Source: Lachnospiraceae bacterium A4
Lineage (GTDB): Bacteria > Bacillota > Clostridia > Lachnospirales > Lachnospiraceae
Length of the DNA stretch: 64,000 nucleotides
Direction of reading: 5' to 3'
Assembly: GCA_000403215.2 (NCBI GenBank)
Contig: KE159538.1
Span: forward strand, 69,973 to 133,972
The notes under the pieces are model-generated. The model saw only the letters and a list, made by a program, of their open reading frames with translations. It made no database searches and had not been told where the DNA came from. Below are positions 1 to 8,864 of the stretch, piece after piece. How positions within the stretch are numbered: position 1 is the first letter of the stretch; each line of letters begins with the position of its first letter. A program made the translations under genes and the position numbers.

Positions 1-85
1 TCACTATCTTTATATATATCGTACATGTTTTGACCATTCTTTAGACTATTAGTATCCCTTTTATTCTATATCTTAATGAGGACAT
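1..85. repeat. 85-bp direct repeat, copy 1 (window edge)
   Basis: Matches 4652..4736 in the same orientation with two visible mismatches. It supplies the last codons and stop of the decayed ATPase gene that runs into it. The other copy covers the natural 3' end of the M56 gene, so this copy may be the tail of a lost second M56 cassette. It may continue to the left of the window. Confidence 0.85.
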
Positions 86-833
86 AATAATTGGTCTCAA
101 ATATAACAGAAAAAACTTGCGTCCGTAGTCCTCTACAAACTTATTGTTGTTTTCTCCATATATATCATTAAAATGTTCCACAAACTTTTCCAATATCCGT
201 TCCATATTCAACCTGCCATCGTAAACAAACTGGCTTTTATTTTCTTTCGCCTCCCTACATATCGCATTTGAGAGTTCTTCCTCCGACAAAAAAAGATTGT
301 ATAAACGAGTTTCAAAAATGCGATTTGCCACTTTTACACTAATACCATCATCTTGAATGTATCCAAACATACACGCAAGTTCTATTGTATGATTATCCTG
401 ACTGTATACAATTTGTTCCCCTTTAAGCAGCATCGCATACAGCATCTCTTTCAAATCTGGATATTCTGTGATATGCTTTATCATGCTATCAAACAAAGCA
501 GCCTTCATCCTCAAAATAATCCTGACTGCCGCTTCGATTCCTTCCATCGTCCAAATATTGTGCTCATCTGCAAAAGCTTCTTGTAACGGCAATTTTTCAT
601 CTATAATTTTGCAAAGTGCGGACACAAGATATGGATACCCTGATGTATATTGATAAAGATACTCTGCAACAGCCTCAACATCCATCCCTGTATGATGGTC
701 GGTCTCATACTCCCATAACATAGCCGCAATCTGTTCTGCCGAAAAGCTCATATCGACATCAAAATCTGCAGCAATATTCCACGGACTGTTTTTTGGGAAT
801 GCAGCGTCCTTCTGTATTAAAATAACGTAACAT
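41..833 (-). pseudogene. Decayed AAA-like ATPase (PD-(D/E)XK-tailed family)
   Basis: Remnant of the Clostridia AAA-ATPase family whose members carry a P-loop ATPase followed by a PD-(D/E)XK-like domain. The true start is ATG at 831..833, behind a GAAGGGAGACAG ribosome site, giving the family's N-terminus MLRYFNTEGRCIPKK. About 15 codons later the sequence jumps, out of frame, to NSPWNIAADFDVDMSFS, which belongs after the P-loop in intact members. The Walker A/B region is therefore missing. The C-terminus runs to ...FLLYLRPII and then breaks into the 85-bp repeat, losing the nuclease-like tail. There are three lesions: internal deletion, frame change and 3' truncation. Family assignment is from remembered sequence patterns. 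A protein starting at ATG 871 could still be made but would lack an ATP site. Confidence 0.7.
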
Positions 834-1253: not shown

Positions 1254-1871
1254 CTATACCCCGTGACTCTCTAATATATGTGTCAGTCTCTTTCCCTGCA
1301 TGAACAAATTCGTAACACTTATTTCAGAGACATCTTTTAACAGATCGCACGCCTGCTTGCAGATCTGTACCCAGTCCTTTTTGGCATTCATAAAGTTGTC
1401 CACCGCTGACACCCCATCACTCACTGTCGGCGTAACACCACTTGTCTGTGCAGTATCCTGCATCATTCTCAGCGTATGATAGGAACCAAAGGTACTGCCA
1501 GTTCCGTCCCCCATATAATCTGCATAGCTACACAGTGCAAACATCTCCATCTGTGATGTATGTTGTGGGTTAATCTTGTTAATCTCCACCGAATACACTT
1601 TATTTTCGCCGTTTAAATTCGAACGAATCTGCACAATAGGATTGTCTGTTGTAGACTTTTCAGAGAGCATTGCTGACATACCATAGACCACCTGCTTCCC
1701 TTCCTCTGGAATCATGGTAAATCCTAATGCTTCCCCGCCTGTTTCTGCCTGCTGAACCTGCTTTATGCTGGCTGGAAGGGCTGCTGCAAATTCTTCCTGA
1801 AATGTCTTTGGCTGATTTGTTTTGTGAGTCATTCCATAATAAACTTGATTGGATATATCATAAACCTGCAT
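1254..1871 (-). CDS. Conserved hypothetical protein, 205 aa
   Basis: No recognised domain, no signal peptide and no membrane segment; it looks like a soluble cytoplasmic protein. The start is set by GGAGG nine bases before ATG 1871. A stretch VVYGMSAMLSEKSTTDNP followed by an acidic/polar segment resembles a group of uncharacterised Lachnospiraceae proteins of similar size, recalled without a named domain. Its promoter has the four-copy GACA array described at 1937..1976, shared with the amidase gene about 2.2 kb upstream, so the two are probably switched together. Function unknown. Confidence 0.75.
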   Translation of the reverse strand: MQVYDISNQVYYGMTHKTNQPKTFQEEFAAALPASIKQVQQAETGGEALGFTMIPEEGKQVVYGMSAMLSEKSTTDNPIVQIRSNLNGENKVYSVEINKINPQHTSQMEMFALCSYADYMGDGTGSTFGSYHTLRMMQDTAQTSGVTPTVSDGVSAVDNFMNAKKDWVQICKQACDLLKDVSEISVTNLFMQGKRLTHILESHGV

Positions 1872-1906: not shown

Positions 1907-1976
1907 ATTATCGTCCATATTCCACCATTTGCGCAGTGACAATATCACGACAAATTTTACGACAGGACGGCGGCAA
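1907..1976 (-). promoter_or_regulatory. Phased GACA operator array and -10 of the 205-aa gene
   Basis: On the plus strand GACA/GGCA begins at 1938, 1949, 1961 and 1972 (steps 11, 12, 11). Read in the transcribed direction it is a run of TTGTCGT-like units ending in TTGTCA (1937..1942), then 24 bp to GATAAT (1907..1912). The layout matches the array at 4118..4186, including the exact 24-bp gap. Repeats of one helical turn upstream of a -10 without a normal -35 suggest tandem activator binding, as with OmpR/PhoB-type response regulators. The regulator is not known. Confidence 0.65.
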
Positions 1977-2069
1977 AAACCAAAAAGCTCTTACATTATA
2001 TATCGTTTTAGGAACTGTTCAAAAATAATATATGCAGCTTGCACAGGATATTTCTACGAAGCTAAATTA

Positions 2070-2873
2070 TCACTCTGTAATTTCATCAGTTATCAAATCT
2101 TTTATTATATATGAAACTAAATTATTTTCCTTATATGCAGCATAAATCATTGCAATTGGAGGCATGTCAACAGCCTCTGCTATTTCTGCTGAATATACCA
2201 TCACTCCATCCTGCTCAAGAACTCCCCTGAACAAAAACATATGGTAAGGCTCTTCACCAAACCTATTTTCTATACACTTTTCAATAGCAGCATATTCTTG
2301 ATTACAATACCGAAGTTGCTTTGTGTCAAGACTGATAACTGCCATTTCCTTTTCGCCGGCAATAAATATGTTATCCTTTATGCGATAACAGACCACATCC
2401 CATCCAAATAGATCTGGCGGTTCAATCGTATAAGACCAGATTTTATACTCTTGTGGCTGCCCAGAAGAAAATTCTATTAATAATAATTGTGGATCCTGTA
2501 CGATATCATCTTCATAGAGTATATTATAATCCTGTAAGCATATATAATTTTTATCCTGCCCCTCATCAATAAAAATTCCAGCTGCTCTCCAATGCCACTG
2601 CTCTCCATTTGTCAATTCTGCTGTAAGATCAAAAGAAAAAGTATCTTTACCTATATTACATGTATATACTTTATCTGAATACGCTTCATTGTAATGTATA
2701 CCATAATCCCACCACACGTCCATAATAGGAATCATTTCCTCTCCCGACGACTGCAATTCCTTAATGACTGGGGCAAGATAATTAACTGCATCCGCAGTAT
2801 TTTCATCTTTCTTCGTAGAGCATCCACTTAAAATTAACACAATGCTTGTTATCATTAATATATTTTTCTTCAT
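2070..2873 (-). CDS. Putative lipoprotein, 267 aa
   Basis: The N-terminus is a type II signal peptide: Lys-rich start, hydrophobic ITSIVLILSG and a Cys at residue 18 (lipobox LSGC), so the protein is probably anchored outside the membrane. The mature part is acidic with many Tyr and Trp residues and no recognised fold. It follows the amidase gene on the same strand at a gap of about 134 bp. A 9-bp inverted repeat (CAGCTATGA / TCATAGCTG) lies in that gap at about 2903..2940 and might be an operator or leader hairpin. Function unknown. Confidence 0.75.
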   Translation of the reverse strand: MKKNILMITSIVLILSGCSTKKDENTADAVNYLAPVIKELQSSGEEMIPIMDVWWDYGIHYNEAYSDKVYTCNIGKDTFSFDLTAELTNGEQWHWRAAGIFIDEGQDKNYICLQDYNILYEDDIVQDPQLLLIEFSSGQPQEYKIWSYTIEPPDLFGWDVVCYRIKDNIFIAGEKEMAVISLDTKQLRYCNQEYAAIEKCIENRFGEEPYHMFLFRGVLEQDGVMVYSAEIAEAVDMPPIAMIYAAYKENNLVSYIIKDLITDEITE

Positions 2874-3007
2874 TTCTGCCCTTTCTTCATATTGAAATTC
2901 CAGCTATGAGCTGAAAATCAATCCATTTCATTCATAGCTGTAATTATAAAAGATTCTTGATAAATCCTGAGAAAAATGAAAAAATTCGATTTTCCTAGGA
3001 TTTACTG

Positions 3008-4037
3008 TTAACTTACCCTATAGAACTTATAATTGGATGCTGTATTGGTATTGATATTAATAACTGTATTTTTTCGGTCATTAGAATGACCGGAATATTT
3101 ATGTGTAGTACCATCATAAGATGTAATCATAACAACATGCGAATAGCTTGTATAACTAACTATATCCCCCTTTTTTACGGAACTATAACTGAGGCTCGTC
3201 CAATATTTGTTATCAGTCATATATTTCGTAAGTGCACTTACTCCAATCCAAGCTGAACTGCCAGCTTTCCATGTATCATCAGTTGAAATTCCTCCCTCAT
3301 ACAATGCTTGAGACACATAATTAGCACAATCTACATGTTTTCCTACAGAAATATAATGTGTATAAGCTGAATTATATTTTGTTGTATCAACTTTGTTGCT
3401 ACACTTGCCTTTTCCACATATATTACATGAGGAAGCGTTAGATGTATATTTCAGCATATAATCAACAGCATCATCTACTGAATATGAAGCTCTAGCTTGC
3501 TGCAATGATGTATCTTCCTCAATTAAATCATCTTCTATACTTGCCATTCTTGCGTAACCATTTTTCTGAAGTTCCTCATGCCCAGATGGCAGCATTACTT
3601 CCCAAGAAACATAATCATTCTTTTTCGCAAGAAAGTGCCTTCATACGCAATCTGCTGTCCTCCGAATTGATACGGCTGACATTTTCCTCCGCCATTTCAT
3701 AATAAGATTCTATTCCCTGAAAATAATCCATTTGCTCTACACTGTCTGCCTTTAACACCACTTCCATCTCCAGAAGATAAATGTTTTCTATATTTCCATT
3801 TATTTCATCACTAGAGCACAATGTTGTTTCTGCATCCATAATATCATAATATTCTGAATATCCGGTTTTCAAGTTAGATACTGCTTCAAGGAGTTGAGGA
3901 GATTCCTCATCTTTAATTTCTGTTGCGTTTGTTATCGTGCTAGTACCCATCAGCAAAACGGTTGTAAGCATCATTGATAATATTCTTTTTACTTTCGTAT
4001 CATTTCCTCTTTCTTGTATTCTAATTAATATGTTCAT
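3008..4037 (-). pseudogene. Secreted amidase-domain protein, frameshifted
   Basis: Two reading frames make one protein. The first (4037 to 3615) has a signal peptide (KRILSMMLTTVLLMG) and a helical N-domain. The second (to 3008) is an Amidase_6-type domain: a CNICGKGKC segment, HVDCANYVSQALYEGG with the likely catalytic Cys, a GDIVSYTSYSHVVMI His motif and a final NDRKNT. Near 3630 the first frame reads RMKALSCEKE-stop, while the next frame reads HFLAKKNDYVSWEVM straight into the second part, so a single-base shift separates them. The upstream start is unclear; V/M before KRIL is also possible. The promoter has the phased GACA array. Sequencing error or phase variation cannot be excluded. Confidence 0.7.
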
Positions 4038-4117
4038 GTTGCATTTAATTCTGCTAGACTGCTTCTCTCCTCTCTCTTTTTTGATTTATAATCTTCTCTA
4101 ACAGAATTTATACTACA

Positions 4118-4186
4118 ATTATAATCCAAAATCTTTCAAATTAATAGTGACAATACTACGACAAAATCACGACAGATATGCGACAA
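4118..4186 (-). promoter_or_regulatory. Phased GACA operator array and -10 of the amidase gene
   Basis: GACA begins at 4149, 4160, 4171 and 4182 on the plus strand, an exact 11-bp period. In the transcribed direction this gives four TGTCG-like units, the last TTGTCA, followed by 24 bp and TATAAT (4118..4123). There is no good -35 at 16-18 bp, which fits activator-dependent transcription. Twin of the site at 1907..1976. Confidence 0.7.
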
Positions 4187-4204: not shown

Positions 4205-4561
4205 TCATATATAATTCACCAATAACTGCTCCAGCTCGCTGTTCTCAATAATCTCCCGAATCCGTTTCAATGCTTTTCGCTGTATCCGTTCATACGTCCT
4301 CTTGCAATACCCATTCTGTTTTCCATGGCACTTCTCATACTGTATCACCACCTGTTCCCATGTAAGTTCATCAATCAAATGCATTTGAAGAACCTCACGT
4401 TCGCTTTCATTTAAGATTTCCAAGTTGCTTTCTATCATATAAATAATTTTAGAGAGCTTTTCATACTCGTCATCTTCCTTTTTTACGCAACTTAGAATCT
4501 CTTTCTTCGCTTTTAATTTTTTTATGGATTTGAGCAGTACTTTCACATCATTTTCAGACAT
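4205..4561 (-). CDS. Small sigma-region-4-like DNA-binding protein
   Basis: 118 aa, cytoplasmic. The N-terminal half is a Lys/Glu-rich helix. The second half (about residues 50-105) has ESEREVLQMHLIDELTWEQV followed by RTYERIQRKALKRIREI, the helix-turn-helix pattern of sigma-70 region 4 and phage ArpU/YlxM-like regulators. No region 2 is seen, so it is probably not a complete sigma factor. ATG 4561 is preceded by AAGGGAGG. It lies downstream of the BlaI/M56 pair and directly upstream of the amidase promoter array, so it is a candidate regulator of that promoter. That link is inference only. Confidence 0.7.
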   Translation of the reverse strand: MSENDVKVLLKSIKKLKAKKEILSCVKKEDDEYEKLSKIIYMIESNLEILNESEREVLQMHLIDELTWEQVVIQYEKCHGKQNGYCKRTYERIQRKALKRIREIIENSELEQLLVNYI

Positions 4562-4618
4562 TGGTTACTCACATCCTCCCTTATTTATATTTCATCACTG
4601 TAGTACTTTTTGTTAGAA

Positions 4619-4639
4619 TTAAAAGGCTTTTCAGCCTTC
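4619..4639 (-). terminator. Short terminator hairpin after the M56 gene
   Basis: AAGGCT-GAAA-AGCCTT stem followed by TTAATT on the minus strand, between the 85-bp repeat and the sigma-like gene. The T-run is weak, so it may be leaky. Confidence 0.5.
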
Positions 4640-4651
4640 TAATTTATAGAC

Positions 4652-4736
4652 TCACTATCTTTATATATATCGTACATGTTTTGACCATTCTTTAGACTAT
4701 TAGTATCCCTTTCATTCTATATCTTAATGAGAACAT
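4652..4736. repeat. 85-bp direct repeat, copy 2
   Basis: Second copy of the sequence at 1..85. It begins with the last codons (TCSH, stop) of the M56 gene and extends into its 3' flank, so this copy is probably the original context. The 4.65 kb between the copies could be lost or duplicated by homologous recombination. Confidence 0.85.
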
Positions 4737-6028
4737 GTTAAAAAAGTTATAACATACATCAACTCTCCCAGTTTTATGTATCCGCATTTACTACATTTCT
4801 CCGCCTCATAATATTCTACTTGGCAGCAATTATCTGAATTTTTAATATGATTCGTTGATTTACCAGCTACATATTTATGTACACACGAACTATGCACTTC
4901 CAAATCATGATTTAATTCGCCTGCCACTTTGATCACCTCTCCTTCATCATTAAAAAATACCCAGCCGCCACATTCATTTACTGGCAGGCTTACATCGGTA
5001 TTCCCCCACATGATATCTTCCTCGGAAAAATACATATCAGTCGCTATACTATTTGAATACATAATCATTTTCGGGCTATAGGCAAACACTGTCAATGATG
5101 AGGTAAATACAGTAATTCCCATAACACCAGCTCCGATTACTTTCCGAAACAAACTTTCTTTTCCCACTCCGTTTTTCATTTGATAAATCCTCTCTTTCAT
5201 CATTTTATTTTGTATATTCAGTCCCATAATAGGCTGTTTTGTATCGCCAGCCGAGCGCTCTGCGATCTCTACTATCAAAAATCCATATTGTTTTATTTCC
5301 TCCTTCGTCTTACCTGTTATTACTTTTCTGTCGCAAGATAGCTCTGCGACCAGATTCCACTGGTACATAACATACCATGCCAAAGGATTATAAATATTAA
5401 ATGCCAGTACTACAAAAGACAGCAGTTTGATCAGATTATCGCAGTGGTGAATATGTATTATTTCATGTTCCAATACCATATTCAGCTCTTCTTCATTCCA
5501 GTCTCTATTCGGCAATACTATAGCGGAACGGAATATGCCAATCGTAAATGGACTTTTGATATATCTGCATTGATAAACTTTATACCTGCAATGCTTCACG
5601 TTACCGTATACTGGCATTGAAACCAGTTCTGTATTCTGCCGAAGATAACCTTTGATCCTTTTATATTTGATAAGATACCGGTTTACGATTGCTATACCAA
5701 TCACCGCCAAAACTACTGACAACAGGTACGCCGCACTGTTTGGAATACGTATCTTGTATGGCGCAATTTGTATAACTTGGTCTGTATAGTTTAAAAAAAG
5801 CGGGGGCTCAGTCTGCCTTTCCGGAAAGGGCCAGAGCCGTAACGCCTTTAATAAACTTTTATATCGAGAGAAGTAATAGGGAAATGGAAAGAGATACTCC
5901 ACAATATTCAATATCAAATACCCTCTTCTCCATTGTATAGAAAAAGATTTGTTCACAAAAGGAGACAGTACAATATAAAAAAGAGTACCTGCACTGCCAA
6001 ACAATGACATAGTTCCAAACAAGGACAT
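4724..6028 (-). CDS. M56-family (BlaR1/MecR1-like) membrane metallopeptidase
   Basis: 434 aa, chosen from ATG 6028, which has GGAGGAAGAATAGC in front and lies one base after the blaI stop; a longer frame would overlap blaI. There are about four membrane helices (near residues 12-30, 36-52, 100-118, and after 320). The zinc site H188-E-I-I-H192 sits in VLEHEIIHIHHCD, with the downstream ligand E229 in VAELSCD. This is the BlaR1-type sensor protease that cleaves the partner BlaI repressor. The extracytoplasmic C-terminus is not a penicillin-binding domain but a short Cys-rich segment (CCQVEYYEAEKCSKCGYIK), so the inducing signal is probably not a beta-lactam. Confidence 0.85.
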   Translation of the reverse strand: MSLFGTMSLFGSAGTLFYIVLSPFVNKSFSIQWRRGYLILNIVEYLFPFPYYFSRYKSLLKALRLWPFPERQTEPPLFLNYTDQVIQIAPYKIRIPNSAAYLLSVVLAVIGIAIVNRYLIKYKRIKGYLRQNTELVSMPVYGNVKHCRYKVYQCRYIKSPFTIGIFRSAIVLPNRDWNEEELNMVLEHEIIHIHHCDNLIKLLSFVVLAFNIYNPLAWYVMYQWNLVAELSCDRKVITGKTKEEIKQYGFLIVEIAERSAGDTKQPIMGLNIQNKMMKERIYQMKNGVGKESLFRKVIGAGVMGITVFTSSLTVFAYSPKMIMYSNSIATDMYFSEEDIMWGNTDVSLPVNECGGWVFFNDEGEVIKVAGELNHDLEVHSSCVHKYVAGKSTNHIKNSDNCCQVEYYEAEKCSKCGYIKLGELMYVITFLTCSH

Positions 6029-6029
6029 G

Positions 6030-6419
6030 CTATTCTTCCTCCAAAATTTTCCGAAGCTCCTCCGCTGTATTTTTGTCCAGCTTCTGACCGCCAGAGAAGG
6101 TGGACAGAAAAGCATACATAGAGCCGCCATACAATTCATTGATGAAATCTCTTGCTTCCCCCTGCTTATATTCTGTGTACGTCATTGCCGGATAATAGAC
6201 CTTTTTGTTTCCTGTGTTTTGAGATACGATGATCAATCCCTTATCAATTAACCTTCTGATAAACGTGTTGATTGTCTGCTTTTTCCAATCCTTCTTGCAG
6301 GTATCATTCAGATACGCTGTAAGCTCTCTGAATGTCTTGCCGCCCTCCTGTCTCCACAAATATTCCATAATCATACTTTCGGATTCACTGATTAAATATT
6401 TGATTTTTGTTTCTGACAT
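6030..6419 (-). CDS. BlaI/MecI-family transcriptional repressor
   Basis: 129 aa from ATG 6419, set by GGAAGGAG just upstream (an earlier in-frame ATG at 6443 lacks a site). The BlaI winged helix spans residues about 5-75: SESESMIMEYLWRQEG, TINTFIRRLIDKG and the wing GLIIVSQNTGNKKVYYP. The C-terminal helix mediates dimerisation, and family members are cut between the two parts by the M56 partner encoded next. It probably represses its own promoter; an inverted repeat lies upstream at 6489..6512. Confidence 0.9.
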   Translation of the reverse strand: MSETKIKYLISESESMIMEYLWRQEGGKTFRELTAYLNDTCKKDWKKQTINTFIRRLIDKGLIIVSQNTGNKKVYYPAMTYTEYKQGEARDFINELYGGSMYAFLSTFSGGQKLDKNTAEELRKILEEE

Positions 6420-6488
6420 TGTTTTTCTCCTTCCGTGCACCAATTTATGACAACATAAGTTTTATTTTTATCCTAACTATAAAATACC

Positions 6489-6512
6489 ACATTTCTGTAA
6501 TACTGTAAATGT
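6489..6512. promoter_or_regulatory. Putative BlaI operator
   Basis: ACATTT and AAATGT arms enclose a TGTA/TACA-rich centre about 70 bp upstream of blaI. BlaI/MecI family operators are dyads built on TACA/TGTA. A TATAGT -10 candidate lies just downstream. Confidence 0.45.
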
Positions 6513-7145: not shown

Positions 7146-8864
7146 TTAGCACTGCTCAACGAGCTTCTTCAATGCTGCGAGTGCTTCGTCTGGAAGCTTG
7201 TCATAGCCTTCCTTCTTGGTTGCGAAGCCTTCCACTGCATCTACACGGTTCTGCATAGCTGACTTCAATGCTGCCACATACTCTGCATTGTTCATATCCG
7301 GCTTGAATGCATCACTTGTCTTTCCTGACCAGTCATACATAATCTCGATATCGTCGAAATTGCCCCACTTCTCGAAGTTTGCCTTTCCTTCAACGATTGT
7401 CTCAAGAATACCTAATGTGTCTGCCGGTTTTACCTTTGTGCCCATGAAATCGCCTGTGTTCACGATATAGCATGCAACGTCCTTCTCCTCAACCAGCTTC
7501 TTGAACTTCTCGTAGTCGTTTACCAACGGATAGGTTCTGAACGGATTTGCATAAGGAACGATTCTCAGTGCATTCAGGTCTGTACCTGCTGCAACACGCT
7601 CTGCGGTAGAAGTCTTGGTAGCAAGTGTAGCACCCATAACAGATGCAAGCGCTGCGCCCTTTAATTTTACTACAGGAGGAATTGTCGGGTCCTTCATAAT
7701 CCAGAAGATTGCATTTACAGGCGCGTCAATCTTGTCCACACGGTTTGGCGACCACAGTTTAGACTTGATTGCACGTCCGTTACCATTTCTGATATCCTCT
7801 GTTACCAACTGAATCTTGCCATCTTCATCCATCGTAGCGGAGCAGTTCTGTGCAGATAATAAGTACTCATTGTCAGGACATCCTGTAGGATAGTCTGCTG
7901 TCTTGTCAAAATAAGTAGGCTCCAGTGCGATAGATGCACAGGTATCTGTATTAATGATGAAAGCGTCATCGTGAAGCACTTTGATGCCGCCAAATGCATC
8001 GTACTTGCCGCCATGCTTTGCATGTGTCAGTGTAGATTTGCCTGATCCTGACAGTCCGTATACGGATGCCACAAACTTCTTGCCGCCTTCCAGAGAATAC
8101 TCTTTCTGTCCGCCGTGGCAGGAAGCATAGCCATTTCTGTTTGCGAGCGCCCATGCCATTGTCAGTGTGCCCTTCTTGTGCTCACCAAAGTACTTCATAC
8201 CAAGAATTGCTGCGCAGTTCTGGTTTGTATCGAAATAGCAGAGTGTCAGAGGATCACTTAAACAGCTATAATCAACGTCCGGTGCCTCGTGTGGTGCCCA
8301 CTGAGGATCAGAGAAGATGTAGATATCCGGCTCATTGCCATCGCCAACCGGCTTAGAGGTCTTGTACATTTTTACATACTCGTCAGACATATACTGGAAG
8401 TTGATCATCCAGTTGTAAAGAAGGTTCTCTTCTCCTTCTGGAATCAGGAGATGTGCCTTTACCATAAACTCAGGGTCAAGACCTACGAAGCACTCTGCAT
8501 GATACATTGTTTTCCAGCGTGTCTCATACACAGCATCCATAACCACTTTGTCAAGCTTTGTCTGATCTACGCCCGGCTCGCCTTTGATGCGGCGTGCTGC
8601 TGCGTAGCGCCCTGTAACCGCTCCATCATTGAATAACAGAACTCTTGAATCCTTCTCAAGACCGAATGTCTCTCCGTCCTTGATCTTCATATCGGTAACA
8701 ATTGTTCCCGGTGAATTCTTTGCTAACTCATAGGCTTCCTTTAAAGTGTTTACCTTCACTACGTTGTTTCCGTAAAAAGCAGCCTCGATGATAGAACGTG
8801 TCTTAGAAAATCCTACCTTTCCAGCACCAATCTCGGAAATGGGATAATACGCTTTCGTTGACAT
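7146..8864 (-). CDS. pckA: Phosphoenolpyruvate carboxykinase (ATP)
   Basis: 572 aa, full length for the ATP-dependent family. It interconverts oxaloacetate + ATP with PEP + CO2 + ADP in the cytoplasm; in fermenting gut anaerobes it often runs in the carboxylating direction. The kinase P-loop GLSGSGKST lies at residues 270-278, followed by FGGIKVLHDDAFIIN (metal-binding Asp pair), with the substrate Arg in ETRWKTMYH earlier. ATG 8864 follows TAAGGAGGATC. It is a single gene with its own promoter and terminator. The leader has a hairpin candidate (AACCGT/ACGGTT arms, about 8900-8936), possibly regulatory. Confidence 0.97.
   Translation of the reverse strand: MSTKAYYPISEIGAGKVGFSKTRSIIEAAFYGNNVVKVNTLKEAYELAKNSPGTIVTDMKIKDGETFGLEKDSRVLLFNDGAVTGRYAAARRIKGEPGVDQTKLDKVVMDAVYETRWKTMYHAECFVGLDPEFMVKAHLLIPEGEENLLYNWMINFQYMSDEYVKMYKTSKPVGDGNEPDIYIFSDPQWAPHEAPDVDYSCLSDPLTLCYFDTNQNCAAILGMKYFGEHKKGTLTMAWALANRNGYASCHGGQKEYSLEGGKKFVASVYGLSGSGKSTLTHAKHGGKYDAFGGIKVLHDDAFIINTDTCASIALEPTYFDKTADYPTGCPDNEYLLSAQNCSATMDEDGKIQLVTEDIRNGNGRAIKSKLWSPNRVDKIDAPVNAIFWIMKDPTIPPVVKLKGAALASVMGATLATKTSTAERVAAGTDLNALRIVPYANPFRTYPLVNDYEKFKKLVEEKDVACYIVNTGDFMGTKVKPADTLGILETIVEGKANFEKWGNFDDIEIMYDWSGKTSDAFKPDMNNAEYVAALKSAMQNRVDAVEGFATKKEGYDKLPDEALAALKKLVEQC

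Follow-up and report, generated by a model that had tools for sequence, protein, structure and literature searches.

In the classical BlaI/BlaR1 systems (BlaRI, MecRI), a BlaI-family repressor is encoded in tandem with an M56 protease, and a dyad lies in the promoter. A different arrangement is described for phage activators: the Phi13 paper (PMC13123087) gives Alt of TP901-1 four repeats at -76 to -32, and in S. aureus phage Phi13 itself an Ltr protein of family IV is encoded just upstream of promoter P23, which carries four repeats and a TATA box, with both the repeats and the ltr gene being needed for activity.

This study followed up two repeat arrays in Lachnospiraceae bacterium A4 that lie in the window, meaning the whole 64,000-nucleotide stretch of DNA that was analysed. 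We consider it likely that these arrays are the operators of an adjacent 118-aa sigma-region-4-like activator whose gene is repressed by BlaI and placed under M56 sensing, with an output confined to neighbouring genes. The features concerned are collected in Table 1.

Table 1. Features of the arrays, the regulatory genes and the array genes (window positions unless a locus is named).
Feature	Position	Strand	Remarks
Array 1	1937..1976	-	four units of TTGTC(G/A) type with 11-, 12- and 11-bp steps; 5' of 205-aa gene
Array 1 units	1976-1971; 1965-1960; 1953-1948; 1942-1937	-	TTGCCG; CTGTCG; TTGTCG; TTGTCA
Degenerate -35, promoter 1	1935-1930	-	TGCGCA
-10 box, promoter 1	1912-1907	-	GATAAT; 24-bp spacer from final unit TTGTCA of array 1
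Array 2	4148..4186	-	four TTGTC(G/A) units, steps 11 bp
Array 2 units	4186-4181; 4175-4170; 4164-4159; 4153-4148	-	TTGTCG; CTGTCG; TTGTCG; TTGTCA
-10 box, promoter 2	4123-4118	-	TATAAT; 24-bp spacer from final unit TTGTCA of array 2
Array 3	L002 14783-14816		precedes 65-aa secreted-peptide-like ORF; just upstream of window
Array 4	L002 9550-9572		precedes second 205-aa gene; just upstream of window
205-aa protein	1254..1871	-	of unknown family; unmatched in Pfam (E<=1) and NCBIfam (E<=0.1)
Lipoprotein-like ORF, 267 aa	2070..2873	-	downstream of amidase; lipobox match below cutoff
Amidase_6 ORF	3008..3595	-	PF12671, E 7.9e-14
First ORF behind array 2	3615..4037	-	N-terminal part of secreted protein; signal-peptide-like start, by eye
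118-aa sigma-region-4-like protein	4205..4561	-	proposed array-binding activator (Alt/Ltr-type)
BlaI-type dyad	4587..4606	.	GTACTACA-N4-TGAAATAT; 5' of activator gene
M56 (BlaR1-type) membrane peptidase	4724..6028	-	PF05569; Cys/His-rich C-terminal tail
BlaI-family repressor	6030..6419	-	PF03965, E 1.4e-24
BlaI-type dyad	6484..6503	.	GTATTACA-N4-TGTGGTAT; blaI promoter, between -35-like TTTACA and -10-like TATTTT

Repeat arrays and their promoters

The preliminary description had reported two four-copy GACA arrays with 11-bp phasing. Both arrays are present at the places it gave, except that the outermost unit of array 1 reads GGCA on the forward strand instead of GACA, and the 11-bp phasing applies throughout array 2 whereas one step in array 1 measures 12 bp. 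The reported distance of exactly 24 bp between the final TTGTCA and a -10 was borne out by the coordinates of both window promoters. Array 2 begins about 20 bp past the stop codon of the gene for the 118-aa sigma-like protein. No good -35 was recognised, in line with the description's statement that a normal -35 is missing, but a spacing of 17 bp allows a degenerate one to be read; the final unit may therefore contact a weak -35 placed at the usual distance (24 = 1 + 6 + 17). Within the window, a 30-bp pattern of array 1 with up to 3 mismatches gave 1 match vs. 0 in 100 shuffles, and a looser three-unit pattern gave 4 matches, array 2 accounting for 3, vs. a shuffle mean of 0.63, with 1 of 100 shuffles reaching 4.

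The same geometry was seen across a range of sites. The best-scoring -10 lies at 24 bp in 15 of 21 tabulated sites from this and other genomes, part of the 21 having come from a model that assumed 24 bp. Array 4 and the G403 C16 site have a -10 at 24 bp, yet another hexamer scores higher in each, and the best -10 lies elsewhere in G416, both G408 sites and one G428 site. Eight sites were found without a -10 condition, through their units or by reading beside the regulator (arrays 3 and 4, G413, G059, G403 C90, G426, G420 C86 and G408 C24); six of these peak at exactly 24 bp among the 28 gaps tried (binomial 5e-8), in a set that was chosen afterwards, with four of its eight sites picked by eye and one of the six positives being a copy of array 2. 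For 11 of the 13 sites examined, the best TTGACA-like hexamer among spacings 15-19 stands at 17 bp, with 3 to 5 of 6 positions matching across the sites, as a raw count with no shuffle background; the exceptions are array 2 and G059.

Scanning the genome for more arrays, as the preliminary description had suggested, revealed two extra strong sites, arrays 3 and 4, both just outside the window. The sequence-only model R1, built from nine sites, returned four matches at E<=4.3e-10 in the 7-Mb genome, all at C12:64514-74146, with the next best at 0.054; 144 of 1812 first-look candidates were scored in this search, and since the genome searches scored part of each genome's candidates, misses are possible. 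Exact and mismatch pattern searches and R1 yielded no additional strong sites in this genome. The genome-wide regulon that had been envisaged is thereby replaced by four strong sites within 10 kb. A 10-N assembly gap just before window position 1 (C12:69963-69972; L002 14964-14973) interrupts another copy of the sigma-like gene, and window positions 1-90 repeat 4651-4740 at 96%, suggesting that the region may be a partly collapsed duplication.

The sigma-region-4-like protein and its linkage to arrays

The 118-aa protein matches the phage families phrog_36 (E 1.8e-7) and phrog_2198, 'Alt-like transcription activator' (8.8e-4), and among 11 members of the regulator group, 8 match phrog_36, 6 match phrog_248 ('transcriptional activator') and 3 match phrog_2198 at E<=0.01. 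Its likeness to sigma region 4 is seen against PDB 8x6g_H (E 0.0013); Pfam gave DUF722 (0.017) and Sigma70_r4 below cutoff and, at E<=1, no sigma region 2 as a complete sigma factor would have. With the AlphaFold model (pLDDT 89, six sequences), ranks 2-15 in Foldseek were sigma factors or their region 4 at high probability, with 0 of 144 matches reaching E<=0.001. A pattern-based scan of viral contigs confirmed no close phage homologues, and a single match (E 0.5) in 50,697 phage records does not mark the protein as phage-encoded; three plasmid matches were found, two of which carry a SigB annotation.

Sixteen genomes were found to contain the regulator, and 12 of them have an array alongside, two of these 12 being variants read by eye (G408, G416). 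The tally comprises 11 of 38 genomes in the genus, G059 and G111 from a family draw (396 others) and G590, G668 and G495 from an order draw (343 others), whereas a phylum draw of 329 genomes contained no new regulator; G422/G423 and G590/G668 are near-identical pairs and therefore not independent. The six named relatives comprise five uncultured Lachnospiraceae and one Roseburia sp. MAG. Regulators next to arrays are 26-59% identical to the 118-aa protein of the window, and a possible relation between unit type and the recognition helix of the regulator was noticed by eye.

The regulator gene lies just upstream of the array at arrays 2 and 3 and in G413, G403, G426, G420 and G408, while in G422/G423 the array is located 0.3-1.1 kb downstream of it; no regulator gene immediately precedes arrays 1 and 4. 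In the remote relatives G416, G059, G590 and G668, the array is divergent beside the regulator gene and faces another small regulator gene (L122 3862-4278, L123 3967-4476, L007 752-1273 and L109 7966-8520), the one in G059 (L007 752-1273) having weak sigma region 2 and 4 matches below cutoff. Recombinase-like genes were seen by eye near L122/L123, which suggests mobile elements. Four units are recognisable in each window array and 2 to 4 in other genomes. The G408 and G416 variants have TGGCAT-type units and 23 bp instead of 24, with model scores of 2.0 and 5.9. G590 and G668, which belong to another family and were retrieved by a protein-profile search of the order after the array rule was formed, both carry TTGTCA-N24-TAAAAT beside the gene, and the array model places its top score in 10 kb there (22.0 in G590, next 5.8; 21.3 in G668, next 1.6). 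The linkage is incomplete in several genomes: G427 and G111 have the regulator with no array seen, G428 has it with two weak array sites, G495 has a broken regulator gene adjoining a decayed array, and array-like sites with no regulator detected occur in G415 (three good units with a poor -10), G410 and G223. A loose unit scan also produced other chains in L117 and L118 lacking a -10 at 24.

Within the genus, R1 matches at E<1e-6 occur in 7 of the 11 genomes that have the sigma-like gene vs. 0 of the 27 where it is missing (Fisher 2.6e-5), a count that is largely circular, with R1 built from sites in 6 of the 7 matching genomes and the genomes being related. Four sites outside the R1 training set have a -10 at 24 bp: G423 (E 3.2e-12), G420 C275 (3.7e-6), G420 C136 (4.1e-4) and G403 C16, which is weak by R1 (E 0.083) yet tops its locus with a simple matrix. 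A matrix from five foreign sites scored arrays 2, 3 and 4 at 30-40 vs. a background of up to 11.5, with array 1 at 10.6 being indistinguishable from that noise. Conversely, a matrix from the four own sites gave its top score to an array at 11 of the 12 foreign loci tried, narrowly in G426 (10.1 vs. 8.1) and with a low score in G059 (6.1), and missed G408. Across the family, 152 of 397 genomes, the present one included, had R1 matches at E<=0.1; these weak matches were regarded as largely noise, given that the scores, own sites excepted, form a continuum from 1.3e-4, and G223 is the sole one among them that was inspected.

Combined, these results support the earlier proposal of tandem activator sites and, judging from the sequence comparisons, the array boxes are very probably docking sites of the small activator encoded beside them. 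The preliminary description had instead favoured an OmpR/PhoB-like activator. An OmpR/PhoB or NisR-type binder was also considered here from the G413 units, which read TTGTCACT, and was given up once the sigma-like gene proved to have arrays next to it. It is very unlikely that an OmpR/PhoB-family response regulator binds the arrays through PhoB-box or NisR/SpaR-like 11-bp repeats, the sigma-like gene being a mere neighbour. TGTCA repeats at 11 bp resemble a Pho box, the repeats of subtilin (spa) boxes stand about 23 bp before the -10, and a response-regulator-like ORF was seen by eye about 4 kb upstream in L041. Against this, no response regulator was recognised among the ORFs listed around the arrays of this genome (by eye, with Pfam on ten of its proteins), all strong sites of the genome lie within 10 kb of the sigma-like gene, and the arrays track that gene across genera and into another family. 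The regulator that is linked and co-inherited is a sigma-region-4-like one.

It is very unlikely that the sigma-like protein, instead of being a tandem activator next to sigma-A holoenzyme, recognises promoters as one part of a split sigma factor, with the units serving as -35-like elements. The modelled region-4-like fold would suit such a role, as would the remote arrays that face a second small regulator gene, one with weak sigma region 2/4 matches; however, the main-clade promoters have a good -10 and a weak -35-like hexamer that sigma-A could engage, several phased units suit an activator array, and reading of the main-clade cassettes by eye turned up no region-2 partner. There is hardly any chance that the arrays are functionless repeats carried by local duplication. 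Nor did the analysis bear out either outcome that the preliminary description named as refuting it, a lack of further sites or one duplicated segment lacking conservation. Arrays 2/3 and 1/4 are indeed duplicate pairs in a region with an assembly gap, but the flanks of arrays 1 and 2 are unlike (ungapped identity 0.40 upstream and 0.33 downstream, with little in common beyond units and spacer), and the same geometry recurs beside diverged regulators in many genomes.

The BlaI/M56 stage, the array genes and the proposed switch

The sigma-like gene and the BlaI/M56 pair had been named in the preliminary description as candidate inputs shared by the 205-aa and amidase genes, a suggestion that is supported here. 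By Pfam, BlaI and M56 genes stand in tandem before the sigma-like gene in this genome and in all five other genomes scanned (G413, G422, G428, G426, G403), and by ORF reading also in G423 and G408, so that the pair was seen in 8 of the 16 regulator genomes. In G427 an M56 gene lies at the edge of its contig, in G420 the contig begins at the regulator, and no BlaI or M56 was seen by eye among the ORFs of the remote loci of G416, G590 and G668. PF05569 is the sole match of the window M56, with no penicillin-binding domain at E<=0.01.

The short BlaI box TACA-N1-4-TGTA is absent before blaI in 7 promoters. A longer dyad, RTAYTACA-N4-TGTRRTAY, was read from blaI promoters and then searched; the informative result is therefore its occurrence before the activator gene. 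At up to 2 mismatches it occurs at two places only in the window, before blaI and before the sigma-like gene, giving 4 matches (both strands per place) vs. a shuffle mean of 0.57, with 4 of 100 shuffles reaching four. Both places recur in G422, G423 and G408; in G428, G426 and G403 the dyad is at the blaI place only, with the sigma-like gene 30-120 bp after M56, and among 11 sequences scanned it is absent in L043 (G413), L045 (G427) and L107 (G420). Six loci gave 18 matches vs. a mean of 1.25 after mononucleotide shuffling, a comparison that is circular for the blaI places. A hairpin (AAGGCT/AGCCTT, window 4623-4638) lies between the M56 and sigma-like genes, with a similar one seen by eye in L041, and possibly separates the two transcripts. 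Additionally, the same 572-aa gene, which may encode PEP carboxykinase, adjoins the cassette here and in G422/G423 (window 7146-8864; L042 1053-2771; L041 118-417, cut).

The 205-aa protein behind array 1 has an 80% identical copy behind array 4 (L002 8863-9480) and a 56% relative in G413 that is likewise behind an array. The amidase coding sequence behind array 2 is split into two ORFs in differing frames (window 3595-3640). Array 3 is followed by the secreted-peptide-like ORF and then by a 733-aa membrane protein (L002 12074-14275) that reaches 98.4 of 189.35 bits, below cutoff, with TIGR01654, 'bacteriocin-associated integral membrane protein'. Array genes in other genomes have, by eye, secretion-signal-like or lipoprotein-like starts, and no Pfam match was obtained for five such proteins and one intracellular-looking protein.

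Under the preferred reading, in which the 118-aa protein acts on the arrays, BlaI would occupy the dyads before blaI-M56 and before the activator gene, keeping the latter off. Once the M56 membrane protease senses a signal, BlaI would be inactivated or removed; the activator would then be made, the arrays would be switched on and the 205-aa and secreted proteins would be produced. Activator molecules would line up on the 11-bp units along one helix face, and the final unit would abut the weak -35 of a sigma-A promoter with a normal 17-bp spacer, so that bound activator could recruit RNA polymerase, a step that parallels the mode of action proposed for phage Alt/Ltr late activators. The local output would comprise the 205-aa proteins, the secreted amidase and the small secreted peptide with the putatively bacteriocin-associated membrane protein.

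More broadly, and tentatively, as a view we hold at slightly under even chances, gut Lachnospiraceae may have recruited a phage-type late activator to serve as the second step of a sensing switch headed by M56/BlaI. The activator would have an operator code of its own that drifts together with the regulator (TTGTC(G/A), TTGACA and TGGCAT types), and each cassette would form an insulated sensor-to-secretion module. In this view the secreted products may even act back on the sensor as the signal, an idea raised by the Cys/His-rich tail of the M56 protein (window 4727-5000), which shows weak similarity to a protein with a signal-like N-terminus encoded near the G426 cassette (L046 7357-7791; pairwise E 2e-4 vs. 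the window M56 and 0.024 vs. the M56 of G426 itself). If true, such an arrangement would join proteolytic derepression by M56/BlaI with a phage-style repeat-array activator and would supply an operator code that can be tested, along with direct targets for function-unassigned secreted proteins of gut commensals. Regulator-operator pairs with differing units would additionally let DNA choice by sigma-4-like activators be studied. A narrow literature search of titles and abstract starts found no description of a cassette combining M56/BlaI with a repeat-array activator.

Comparison with described systems

The layout found here is like that of TP901-1 Alt, in which imperfect direct repeats of 11 bp likewise stand immediately after the activator gene, ahead of a -10; with the -10 taken as -12 to -7, the window units span about -75 to -32, against -76 to -32 for the Alt repeats. 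In the TP901-1 record after alt, a repeat finder located a pair of 11-bp copies (82% alike, spaced 11 bp), with the other two read by eye, and TATACT follows the repeats at a spacing of about 22 bp by reading. In contrast to the present locus, Alt has phage packaging genes as its target, this approximately 22-bp distance to the -10 and no BlaI/M56, and the similarity of the two proteins is weak (hhalign probability 7.6%). Phi13 Ltr shares with this locus a regulator gene upstream of a promoter with four repeats, but differs in its 18-bp repeats, its phage late genes and its control.

Among the traits of the Alt/Ltr/ArpU group, the window has the gene directly upstream of the array promoter that it is proposed to control and about four tandem repeats before the -10. 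It departs from the group in that the published Ltrs are basic whereas the 118-aa protein, at pI 6.75, is not (TP901-1 Alt has 6.33), and in its neighbours, which are BlaI, M56 and secreted proteins rather than a phage setting with packaging or lysis targets. By analogy, it is proposed that the 118-aa protein works like an Alt/Ltr activator without necessarily being a strict member of that family. The window resembles the classical BlaI/BlaR1 systems in its tandem repressor and M56 genes and the dyad in the blaI promoter, and is unlike them in that its M56 protein has no match to a penicillin-binding sensor domain and in that the output is proposed to run through a second, activating regulator. 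Overall, an activator with this kind of repeat layout is already known from phages, and the BlaI/M56 stage ahead of an Alt/Ltr-like activator in the main clade is the new part.
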